Shown here one piece after another: positions 27,403 to 36,072 of a stretch of DNA of 36,072 bases. This stretch comes from a virus. The first letter of the stretch is position 1, and every line of letters begins with the position of its first letter. The position numbers were made by a program, and so were the translations under genes. Below the pieces are notes generated by a model. It had not been told where the DNA came from. It ran no database searches and saw nothing but the letters and a program-made list of their open reading frames with translations. The DNA is taken from IMG/VR virus record IMGVR_UViG_3300028025_000302, positions 1-36,072 of that record. One strand, given 5' to 3'.

Positions 27403-27447
27403 AGCCCCCTGCTCAGGAGAAATCCTGGGTGGGGGGCTTCTTTTTTT
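27403..27447 (+). terminator. Strong intrinsic terminator at the end of the late operon
   Basis: AGCCCCC (27403-27409) pairs with GGGGGCT (27432-27438), with an inner CAGGA/TCCTG stem (27414-27418 with 27423-27427) and a GAAA loop, followed by TCTTTTTTT. It closes the long + strand structural and lysis operon. On the - strand the hairpin lacks a T run, so it acts mainly in one direction. The T run overlaps the stop codon of the - strand gene. Confidence 0.92.
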
Positions 27448-27682
27448 ATGCCTCTTTGTCCACCGGACAAGGCACGGTTACTAGATTGCCGCAACTAACA
27501 CAGGTTGCGTCTAGGAAATACCAGGATAGTTCGTAGTCCTCAAAGGACGCCATAACGTTAAAGACCTGCGACCCACACGGACAGACGTGGACAGGGCCAA
27601 AGGCCCGCAAATCGCTTCCAAAGGCTTCTGGGAGGTATTCTGTGCGCCTGAATAGGCGCAGGGTTGGTAGACGGAGCCGCAT
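27446..27682 (-). CDS. Zinc-ribbon-like protein, 78 aa
   Basis: Starts MRLRLPTLRLFRRTEYLPEA with GAAGGTGAGG about eight bases before the ATG. The core VCPCGSQVFNVMASF and later ATCVSCGNLVTVPCPVD holds CxC and CxxC pairs that would bind one zinc, with an aromatic strand between them (DYELSWYFLD). The N-terminus is basic and hydrophobic. It is one of only two - strand genes here and lies in the turn between late and early arms. Role unknown; a regulator or RNA-polymerase-related factor is possible but not shown. Confidence 0.78.
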   Translation of the reverse strand: MRLRLPTLRLFRRTEYLPEAFGSDLRAFGPVHVCPCGSQVFNVMASFEDYELSWYFLDATCVSCGNLVTVPCPVDKEA

Positions 27683-27722: not shown

Positions 27723-27746
27723 TACCGTCATTCGCCTACGGCTCAT

Positions 27747-27752
27747 ATTGTA
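27747..27752 (-). promoter_or_regulatory. Possible -10 box for the - strand zinc-ribbon gene
   Basis: On the - strand the sequence reads TACAAT, one mismatch from the sigma-70 consensus, about 65 bases upstream of the start codon. No good -35 box was found at the right distance, so the call is weak. Confidence 0.25.
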
Positions 27753-27772
27753 CACAGACACCTGCCTAGTAT

Positions 27773-27786
27773 GTGTCTTACGACAC
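27773..27786. promoter_or_regulatory. Inverted repeat at the -35 position of the proteasome-like gene promoter
   Basis: GTGTC, TTAC, GACAC. Its centre is about 31 bases before the predicted start of transcription, so a bound protein would block or touch RNA polymerase. Candidate operator; short arms keep confidence modest. Confidence 0.35.
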
Positions 27787-27795
27787 GCCAATGAC

Positions 27796-27811
27796 TGGTA
27801 TCATATTCTCG
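27796..27811 (+). promoter_or_regulatory. Extended -10 promoter, predicted leaderless start
   Basis: TGG followed by TATCAT (27799-27804), an extended -10 element with one mismatch from TATAAT. The start point seven bases after the box would be base 27811, the G of the GTG start codon. No ribosome site precedes that GTG, which agrees with a leaderless transcript, a common mode in Actinobacteria. No convincing -35 is present, as is usual for extended -10 promoters. Confidence 0.5.
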
Positions 27812-28368
27812 TGACTACATTAACTGGAATCCAAGGACCTGACTTCGTTGTACTAGCTGCCGATAGTCAGATAACTGATAACGATCAACGCGTCATTAGT
27901 ACGCAGACGCCCAAGATTGTACGCATCGGAAAGTATCTACTCGGCGTAACTGGTGACTCACGCCCCGGTGATATCTTGATGTATAACTGGAAGCCACCTG
28001 TGTATAAGTATCAGGATCCGGTGCAGTGGATGGGTAAGAAGATCATCCCTAGTATCCAACAAGCGTTCAAAGATAATGGGTACGAGGTAGATAAGGAAGC
28101 TAACTTCTGTTACCTATTAGCCTTTGACTCGATGCTGTTCTCTATCGGCCCAGACTTGTCATTTAACGCAAGTGAGCACGGACTATTCACCGCAGGAAGT
28201 GGCGGTCCTTATGCACTCGGTTACCTTTATTCTTTGAAGCCACACTCCTACAAGAGTTTGCTTATGGCAAAGGTAGTTGCAGAAAGGGCTGTAAAGATCG
28301 CGTCGGTGCTGGACATAAATACCTGCCCTCCGATACAAATAGTTACTCAACAGAGAGGCTGGGAATAA
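27811..28368 (+). CDS. Proteasome beta-subunit-like Ntn hydrolase
   Basis: 185 residues starting (M)TTLTGIQGPDFVVLAADS. Counting the first Thr after Met as residue 1, Thr1 and Asp17 fall exactly at the proteasome beta positions, and TPKI supplies the Lys33 equivalent with a one-residue shift. Later marks are GVTGDS (Gly47 region), LFTAGSGGPYALGYL (Ser129 region) and VLDINTCPPIQIVT (Asp166 region). All catalytic elements are therefore present. The fold is shared by 20S proteasome beta subunits, HslV and Anbu; length is nearest to HslV or a mature beta subunit. There is no propeptide if GTG 27811 is the start, so removal of Met alone would free the nucleophile; an upstream TTG at 27748 would add 21 residues but has no ribosome site. 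No cognate ATPase gene is nearby. First gene of the right arm; coupled to the next by TAATG. Confidence 0.85.
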   Translation: MTTLTGIQGPDFVVLAADSQITDNDQRVISTQTPKIVRIGKYLLGVTGDSRPGDILMYNWKPPVYKYQDPVQWMGKKIIPSIQQAFKDNGYEVDKEANFCYLLAFDSMLFSIGPDLSFNASEHGLFTAGSGGPYALGYLYSLKPHSYKSLLMAKVVAERAVKIASVLDINTCPPIQIVTQQRGWE

Positions 28369-28454
28369 TGCTTGAATTTTTATTCGGTTTGCTATTAGGT
28401 TTCGTCGGGGCGTATGCTTTTGACTATTGGTTAACAAAGAGGGATAACAAATGA
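28368..28454 (+). CDS. Tiny membrane protein, 28 aa
   Basis: MLEFLFGLLLGFVGAYAFDY followed by WLTKRDNK: one hydrophobic helix with a positively charged end, predicted to sit in the membrane with the C-terminus inside. Overlaps the previous stop (TAATG) and the next start (ATGA), which supports it being a real gene. Small membrane proteins next to early genes often modulate host envelope functions; nothing specific is known here. Confidence 0.6.
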   Translation: MLEFLFGLLLGFVGAYAFDYWLTKRDNK

Positions 28455-28696
28455 AGTACGAAGAATTGCTTACTAAAATAAAAACAGGTAATGAATTTGC
28501 TGGCATAAAGTATGCCCCTGACTCACATACCTTTGCCCTTCGTGCAGTAGTGGATATGCACAAGCCATTCAATGTAGGCACTGATAAAGAACAGTGCTCT
28601 AGATGTATGGATGTCAACACATCAAATGGGGTTGTCTACGAAATGTCTCCATATCCTTGTGAAACTATAAAGGCTATTGAGAAGGAGTTAGCGTGA
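28451..28696 (+). CDS. Hypothetical early protein with a CxxC pair, 81 aa
   Basis: Starts MKYEELLTKIKTGNEFAGIK. The segment TFALRAVVDMHKPFNVG and then CSRCMDVN and YPCETIKAIEKEL recur as a pattern in small early proteins of actinobacterial phages (an ALRAV-E-HKP helix, a CxxC pair, and a final YPC-TI-AIEKEL helix). One or two metal-binding cysteine pairs are plausible. Function unknown. Overlaps both neighbours by four bases. Confidence 0.78.
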   Translation: MKYEELLTKIKTGNEFAGIKYAPDSHTFALRAVVDMHKPFNVGTDKEQCSRCMDVNTSNGVVYEMSPYPCETIKAIEKELA

Positions 28697-29649
28697 TTAC
28701 AGATCCAAAGGAACTGCTACTGCACGTACTGCACTCTAAAGATGCAGGTCGTGATCGCAGTAAGCAGACACAGGTAGGCCCATCAGAGATCGGTGGCTGC
28801 CGTCGTAAGGTTTGGTACCGGTTAAACGCACAGCCAGAGACTAACGATAACCAGTCAAAGCTGGCAGCAATTATGGGTACTGCTATCCACGCTGCTATTG
28901 AAGATGCAATCACCACACTAGATCCAGAAGGTAAGACTTACTTGGTCGAGACTGAAGTTGCATACGGTGATATGAAAGCACACGTTGACTTATTCGTACC
29001 GGGTATTGGTGCGGTCATTGACTGGAAGACAAGCAAGGTTAAGAACCTTAGTTACTTCCCGTCAGCGCAACAGCGCTGGCAGGTGCAGGTCTATGGTTAC
29101 TTGCTATCTAAGAACGGTTATGAAGTTAAGACAGTTAACCTGGTAGCGATAGCACGCGATGGTGATGAGAAGGATGTAAAGGTTCACAGCGAACCATACG
29201 ATGAAGTCTCAGCACTAGAAGCGCTACAGTGGTTGGCAAATGTAAAGGCTATGACCGAGGCACCAGCACCAGAGAAAGACGAATCGTTCTGCAAGAACTA
29301 CTGCCAGTACTACGACGCATCCGGTGAGATGGGTTGCGTTGGCTTAAAAAAAGAACGTATCGTCCTTGAAGAAGTGGTGATTGAGGATGCAGAAGTTGAC
29401 AGCCACGCTCTAAAGTATTTACAGTTAGATGAAAGAATCAAAGAGCTGGAGAAAGAAAAGGATTCCTTGAAGGCTTCCTTCGAGGGAACTACTGGCACTA
29501 CTGCTAGTGGTATTCAGATCAGTTGGACAACGGTTAAAGGTCGTGAGACAGTTGACTCTGAACAAGTAGAAAAACTATTGGGCTTCGTACCGAAGGTTGT
29601 TGGTAAAGAGTCCATTAGATTAAACATCAAACCAAGTGGAGGAAAGTAA
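28693..29649 (+). CDS. Cas4/RecB-like PD-(D/E)XK exonuclease with a probable iron-sulphur cluster
   Basis: 318 residues, GTG start overlapping the preceding stop (GTGA), AAGGAG upstream. Motifs of the RecB nuclease family: GTAIHAAIEDAI (residues 62-73), HVDLFV, VIDWKTSK (the D-x-K core) and QVQVYGYLL (the QxxxY motif). One cysteine before the nuclease core (C36) and three after it (FCKNYC, MGC) match the Cas4/AddB arrangement for a 4Fe-4S cluster. A charged coiled-coil and small C-terminal domain follow (from about 235). In phages such enzymes process DNA ends for replication, recombination or defence evasion. No CRISPR genes are near, so a Cas4 role in spacer acquisition is not suggested. 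Confidence 0.88.
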   Translation: MITDPKELLLHVLHSKDAGRDRSKQTQVGPSEIGGCRRKVWYRLNAQPETNDNQSKLAAIMGTAIHAAIEDAITTLDPEGKTYLVETEVAYGDMKAHVDLFVPGIGAVIDWKTSKVKNLSYFPSAQQRWQVQVYGYLLSKNGYEVKTVNLVAIARDGDEKDVKVHSEPYDEVSALEALQWLANVKAMTEAPAPEKDESFCKNYCQYYDASGEMGCVGLKKERIVLEEVVIEDAEVDSHALKYLQLDERIKELEKEKDSLKASFEGTTGTTASGIQISWTTVKGRETVDSEQVEKLLGFVPKVVGKESIRLNIKPSGGK

Positions 29650-35479: not shown

Positions 35480-36072
35480 TTAGATCGTATCACAGATACC
35501 TTGTATGATCCATTCTACGACAGGCACAGCAACTGCGTTGCCCATTTGTTTATAGCGAGCAGAGTCAGACTGTCCAGCAGTCCAGTCATCAGGGAAACCC
35601 TGCAACCTCTCACACTCGACAGGTGTTAGTCGGCGTACTGAGGTGCCAGTTACTGACGGTGGTTGCTGGCTAGCTTTGAGAGTCGGAGACATATCCTCAA
35701 AGGTTGTGGCATTAGATCCGAATTGCGTATCAAAAGAGATAGCAACTCCGTGTCTGTCTCCACCAGTTAAGGTATTCATTGGGTCTCCTTCTTTACCTAT
35801 ACCTAATCCATTACCAGCACCATCTTCTTTGTAGGTACCGTCGTGCATTTGTCGTTTGCCGGCAAAACGTGTTGCTTTATCGTGTATAGGCACAGCAATT
35901 ACAAGTTTATTTTCCGACACGTACTGGTTACCTACTCCCTTGTAATCTCTTGCTTGTAGCGAACCAACCACATCTGCTGTTGTGGTAACGACAGTAGCAA
36001 CGCAAGACACGTTGTTCCCACCGGTACCCATACGTGATGTAAGAGTGTTCATAGTATCTCCTTGTACTCTAG
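35480..36072 (-). CDS. C5-cytosine DNA methyltransferase, C-terminal part (continues outside the window)
   Basis: The - strand frame is open to the right edge. Visible parts: GDTMNTLTS near the edge and KEGDPMNTLTGGDRHGVAIS inside, FEDMSPTLKASQQPPSV, then motif IX-like RRLTPVECERLQGFPDDW and motif X-like RYKQMGNAVAVPVVEWI. These belong to the C-terminal half of Dcm-type enzymes; the catalytic PC motif and SAM-binding motif I must lie beyond the window. An ATG at 36052 with AAGGAGAT upstream might start a short product, but the motifs show that the frame is part of a longer enzyme. Phage versions protect the genome from host restriction. Confidence 0.88.
   Translation of the reverse strand, partial: RVQGDTMNTLTSRMGTGGNNVSCVATVVTTTADVVGSLQARDYKGVGNQYVSENKLVIAVPIHDKATRFAGKRQMHDGTYKEDGAGNGLGIGKEGDPMNTLTGGDRHGVAISFDTQFGSNATTFEDMSPTLKASQQPPSVTGTSVRRLTPVECERLQGFPDDWTAGQSDSARYKQMGNAVAVPVVEWIIQGICDTI

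Follow-up and report, generated by a model that had tools for sequence, protein, structure and literature searches.

Phages have been known since 2021 to encode homologues of proteasome subunits, when Fuchs, Alva and Lupas described the phage proteasome homologues PPH (~140 residues), AAH and CPH (PMC8665760). These proteins are without an assigned function, and their genomic context gave no hint of one; Actinobacteria-specific phages with an AAH were not found in that study (Fuchs et al. 2021). Among the host-encoded relatives, the betaproteobacterial proteasome homologue (BPH) has no propeptide and makes no contacts to HslU (PMC5777263).

A homologue of this kind is encoded in the window, i.e. 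the whole stretch of viral DNA analysed here (36,072 nucleotides, IMG/VR record IMGVR_UViG_3300028025_000302). It shares with the proteins of Fuchs et al. (2021) the phage origin, the compact group-I type, the absence of a propeptide, the intact residues Thr1, Asp17, Lys and Gly47 and a match to phrog_1040, and annotated homologues are present in several GenBank phages. With 185 aa it is longer than a PPH of ~140 aa and falls outside the length of that group. Unlike the described homologues it belongs to a separate clade, which is found in actinophages, and it occupies a fixed slot as first early gene, for which a non-homologous alternative exists. Judged by sequence comparison, the window protease is a separate clade of the phage proteasome homologues already described (Fuchs et al. 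2021). The features of the locus are as follows (positions in the window).

27403..27438, plus strand: strong intrinsic-terminator-like hairpin, which ends the late (lysis) operon
27446..27682, minus strand: zinc-ribbon-like protein of 78 aa with the Cys pattern CPCG..CVSCG; conserved left border of the slot
27733..27755, plus strand: conserved upstream box CGCCTACGGCTCATATTGTACAC, from sequence comparison
27773..27789, plus strand: dyad GTGTC-TTAC-GACAC followed by GCC (GTGTCTTACGACAC); possible operator
27796..27804, plus strand: extended −10 element TGGTATCAT, 6 nt before the GTG; probable leaderless promoter
27811..28368, plus strand: predicted proteasome-like Ntn (Thr1) hydrolase of 185 aa with Thr1, Asp17, Lys34, Gly47, Ser129, Asp167 and Thr170
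28368..28454, plus strand: putative single-membrane-span peptide of 28 aa (MLEFLFGLLLGFVGAYAFDYWLTKRDNK), overlapping the protease stop (TAATG)
28693..29649, plus strand: Cas4/PD-(D/E)XK-type nuclease; right border of the slot and the gene used for sampling

The open reading frame of the protease extends from a GTG at 27811 to a TAA stop at 28366-28368, and the residue directly after the GTG is a Thr. Most relatives have a stop in frame 1-8 codons 5′ of the equivalent start, and the protease start is therefore placed at 27811 and not at the TTG at 27748. That no propeptide is needed, as the preliminary description had proposed, agrees with the Thr directly behind the start codon and with the upstream stops in the relatives.

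The window protease matches Pfam PF00227 with its N-terminal part (E 8.7e-8, 32.5 bits compared to a cut-off of 22.4), while phrog_1040 ('peptidase HslV family') covers residues 1-181 (E 3.2e-22) and is also matched by 21/21 members of a wide phage protein set. An AlphaFold2 model computed from a 42-sequence alignment (pLDDT 92.2, pTM 0.88) was compared to known structures. VIA-align Z scores of 19.7-21.0 were obtained against 20S beta subunits, BPH and HslV; the alignment places Thr1 (model residue 2) on chain residue 1 of the matched proteins, and BPH and HslV took the top ranks in Foldseek. In an alignment of the window protease with 80 relatives Thr1, Thr2, Asp17, Ser18, Lys34, Gly47, Gly128-Ser129-Gly130-Gly131, Asp167 and Thr170 are invariant (81/81), and Thr1, Asp17 and Lys34 are kept in all 21 sequences of the wide phage alignment. 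The dN/dS values computed for the window protease versus seven relatives (0.05-0.11) show purifying selection at the level of the coding sequences. The earlier claim that the phage encodes a proteasome-beta-like hydrolase whose active site is complete had been made dependent on an Ntn fold in structure prediction and on retention of Thr and Lys in relatives; both were found, and fold, profile match and invariant residues agree. Thus, sequence and model confirm that 27811-28368 encodes a predicted proteasome-like Ntn hydrolase. The Lys33 equivalent named previously is indeed present, but at residue 34 instead of 33. As the equivalent lysine of the Thiobacillus BPH is residue 37 (PMC5777263), such a shift in position is normal.

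The best Foldseek match of the window protease is BPH (PDB 5OVS/5OVT; E 2e-12), and both proteins align by profile over the full length (E 2.5e-10); nevertheless the identity is ~20% and BPH is host-encoded. HslV (ClpQ) shares the fold, the Thr1 and a profile match with the window protease, but the scores are far below the HslV equivalog cut-offs (29 bits vs 137 for NF003964, 27.8 vs 157.75 for TIGR03692) and no hslU gene is found in the neighbourhood. A tree was calculated with phage clades including those of the window, of the phages E7 and F5 (see below) and of DSL-LC01. Two HslV sequences were placed apart from all phage proteins on a separate branch with a support of 100/100. An HslV orthologue was ruled out by the sub-cut-off scores together with this branch. 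The suggestion of an HslV-like or Anbu-like protease consequently holds in so far as profile and fold are nearest to HslV and BPH, but not with regard to the HslV cut-offs or to Anbu: no helix follows residue 167 in the model, which ends after the strand 176-181 without the long C-terminal H5. This end also fits the group-I feature 'no C-terminal S12/H5'. Two helices of the model (50-58 and 70-88) lie in the H1/H2 region, and we infer their matching to the helix names of the PPH paper. A PrcB orthologue was ruled out by the absence of the bacterial PrcB profile TIGR03690 among the matches of the window protease (it was weak in 6/42 relatives), by the missing propeptide and by the lack of an alpha partner gene, with no second PF00227 match in the record. 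The view of a PrcB-like beta subunit had to be given up, as the window protease is closer to HslV and BPH (group I of Fuchs et al. 2021). The scanned window genes include neither an adjacent alpha subunit nor an adjacent unfoldase gene, in line with the preliminary description, and apart from a DnaB-like helicase no AAA+ unfoldase or ATPase partner was found among them.

A scan of ~85,000 species genomes of bacteria and archaea with the family alignment, which used only two short patterns, revealed no close bacterial source; the sole match was weak, comprised 22 residues and came from an Acidobacteria MAG. A short record labelled 'Listeria phage' (OR849164.1, locus L094) appears to carry a bacterial hslV gene, which is probably host DNA.

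The rightward gene block behind the protease comprises the nuclease, a gp49-like protein, WhiB, a helicase and a resolvase. WhiB is an actinobacterial marker. A gene for a C-5 cytosine DNA methylase runs off the end of the window, so that its C-terminal part is present (35480-36070, minus strand). No tRNA was found by a tRNA scan of the window, and the 78-aa zinc-ribbon-like protein had no Pfam match. The window is collinear with OX376640 and OX376641 (terL 46-47%, portal ~50%, capsid 52%, lysis gene 63-64%), which are the cultivated phages LanE43-AprE7 and AprF5 (E7 and F5) of 'Ca. Planktophila' (PMC10202952). From this collinearity and the presence of WhiB, a host belonging to the Nanopelagicales is very probable for the window virus. 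IMG/VR scans for relatives gave 319 in one scan and at least 574 in another, of which at most 80 per scan were kept; this virus group of freshwater actinobacteria is very common.

A sigma-70 consensus promoter with a −35 element was not found upstream of the protease, but comparison of upstream sequences revealed an extended −10 element. The motif TGnTAnnnT is present 6-7 nt 5′ of the protease start at 74/81 loci (45/50 distinct upstreams), compared to a background of 0.45% of random positions and to none of the 31 other window genes. Leaderless mRNAs are common in actinobacteria. Since the extended −10 element lies only 6-7 nt before the start, the protease gene probably gives a leaderless mRNA and is probably the first of the early genes. 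Early expression of this first gene of the right arm, as assumed before, is probable given its first place behind a conserved leaderless-type promoter. An exact copy of the dyad GTGTCTTACGACAC occurs once in the window, and the element, which may act as an operator, is conserved upstream of both slot types described below.

The five upstreams without the motif carry an endonuclease-like gene directly before the protease start. At four loci (L031:6001, L076:6001, L078:1209, L080:2304) this is an endonuclease VII-like gene; the leaderless promoter is lost, and the start codon of the protease seems to be ATC or ATA, 6-7 nt behind an SD-like GGAG. An HNH-like endonuclease gene (L002:5546-6004, also before L010 and L020) extends right up to the TTG start codon of the protease. 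Two kinds of endonuclease have thus been inserted at one point.

To avoid a bias towards the protease, the slot between zinc-ribbon-like gene and nuclease was sampled by means of the downstream nuclease (~82% or more nuclease identity; some contigs are near-duplicates). Among 80 contigs, 78 had a resolvable slot, which held the proteasome-like gene in 62 cases and a gene for a 110-aa HExxH protein in 16, never both and never neither. All loci with both borders together, a set biased to the proteasome-like gene, comprised 199 proteasome-like and 18 HExxH slots, with none empty and none with both genes. An extra sample obtained via tail-protein loci showed 20 proteasome-like slots, one HExxH slot and no empty one. 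Seen from the side of the HExxH gene, 60 of 76 loci have it in the slot; one locus is truncated at the left border, and the other 15 represent a more distant branch with the gene deeper in the early region. The slot of G007 (L319) is also of the HExxH type. The proteasome-like gene is absent from 14 HExxH-type records taken as whole (five positive controls), and the HExxH gene from 23 other records taken as whole. A matching promoter geometry (5-7 nt) was observed for 21/24 HExxH genes. Peptides similar to the 28-aa membrane peptide, searched with one strict pattern, follow 107/219 proteasome-like and 43/76 HExxH genes.

In the HExxH protein His53, Glu54, His57, Glu74 and Glu75 are invariant (63/63). 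It stays below the Pfam cut-offs for M78 (21.5 vs 22 bits) and DUF6782 (24.7-26.5 vs 27), and its fold matches are weak (Z about 5) and mostly metallopeptidases, including the same-size minigluzincins and IrrE; a proteasome fold was not found in it. Motif and model make it likely that this protein is a peptidase, and position and promoter suggest that the two slot genes are functionally equivalent. ImmA, IrrE and other M78 peptidases act on single regulators, which would fit limited proteolysis. Two unrelated predicted peptidases swapping behind one early promoter suggest that the target lies outside the phage head and undergoes limited proteolysis; most simply it would be a regulator of the host or a defence protein.

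We therefore tentatively favour, at slightly less than an even chance, a protease which acts early and on its own, cleaves a host or defence protein and has the HExxH protein as its counterpart in sister phages. Transcription of the early operon would begin with the protease gene, probably giving a leaderless mRNA, and removal of the start Met would expose Thr1. The subunits would probably assemble into a small ring acting without a dedicated unfoldase, as proposed for BPH (PMC5777263), and early in infection this ring may act by limited proteolysis on a regulator or defence protein of the host, a target at which we can only guess. In sister phages the same promoter would drive the unrelated peptidase-like HExxH protein, which would do an equivalent job. 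The fold and intact site, the purifying selection, the lack of a propeptide, the first-gene promoter, the slot swap, the independence of the capsid type (see below) and the missing ATPase partner among the scanned window genes speak for a stand-alone early protease; the weak family assignment of the HExxH protein, the location behind the portal gene in E7 and F5 and the absence of both genes from two relatives speak against it. A further-reaching version, in which the place of the first early gene is reserved in this clade for a protease acting alone and Thr peptidase and zinc peptidase interchange because both cut one and the same host or defence protein, is possible but rather doubtful.

Ring peptidases of the proteasome fold need an unfoldase for folded substrates, as established for HslUV and the 26S proteasome. 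No unfoldase is encoded adjacent to the window protease, which makes it unlikely that it is a general accessory peptidase degrading host protein in bulk for amino acids, with the slot as an interchangeable cargo site. Such a role would agree with the lack of the gene in some relatives and with homologues scattered through accessory regions of unrelated phages. A cargo site would, however, be expected to hold many gene families, and the 78/78 sampled slots hold just two.

The homologues of LanE43-AprE7 and AprF5 resemble the window protease in the active site (~30% identity) and lie in a collinear genome, but they are encoded directly behind the portal gene, whereas the window gene opens the early block. 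Among E7/F5-type phages the homologue has this location at 80/80 loci sampled by the protein and 66/76 sampled by the portal, which suggests late expression there. The ten portal-sampled loci without it (including L541 and L547) encode a conserved ~81-aa protein at that position. G037 and G038, near-whole relatives of E7/F5-type with a divergent capsid, contain neither the proteasome-like nor the HExxH gene, and the protease function is thus dispensable in some relatives. In phage F5 a protein of 84 aa with an acidic tail (L083:6534-6788) overlaps the stop of the homologue (ATGA) and is kept in E7/F5-type relatives.

The site behind the portal is the classic place of a prohead protease, the window has no other recognisable head protease, and the two near-whole relatives lacking a homologue are those with the divergent capsid. 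Nevertheless, it is quite unlikely that the window protease is a maturation protease which digests the scaffold or trims the capsid protein. In the clade of the window the gene lies in the early block away from the head genes, and capsid, scaffold, portal and replication genes are unchanged by the swap. The capsid of the HExxH-type G003 is 97% identical to that of the window and those of others are 81-86%, while the HExxH-type G024 and G025 have capsids 76-79% identical to that of F5. The swap is thus not accompanied by a change of capsid type, and this speaks against a prohead protease.

That the protein becomes part of the host 20S proteasome or of another protease ring, takes the place of such a ring or poisons it, or borrows a host unfoldase (HslU, Mpa), is very unlikely: the fold is shared, the probable host is an actinobacterium and some actinobacteria have a 20S proteasome, but the window protease is closer to HslV and BPH than to PrcB, its conserved catalytic site would be unneeded by a pure poison, its swap partner is without a proteasome fold, and for the replacement or poisoning of host PrcB considered in the preliminary description nothing was found in support.

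Returning to the stand-alone early protease, the conserved extended −10 element, the slot swap with the HExxH gene and the portal-side homologue in E7 and F5 are new compared to that description. In this virus group the context does point to a function, by a dedicated promoter, the first place in the early operon and the replacement by an unrelated peptidase-like gene. Slot and promoter common to the protease and the unrelated HExxH gene suggest that the cleavage of some protein at an early stage of infection is important for viruses of the window type. As E7 and F5, cultivated on 'Ca. Planktophila' LanE-43, carry a homologue, the function is testable in a natural system. If the further-reaching version with one common target were true, a very abundant group of freshwater viruses would use a proteolytic takeover or counter-defence of a new kind.
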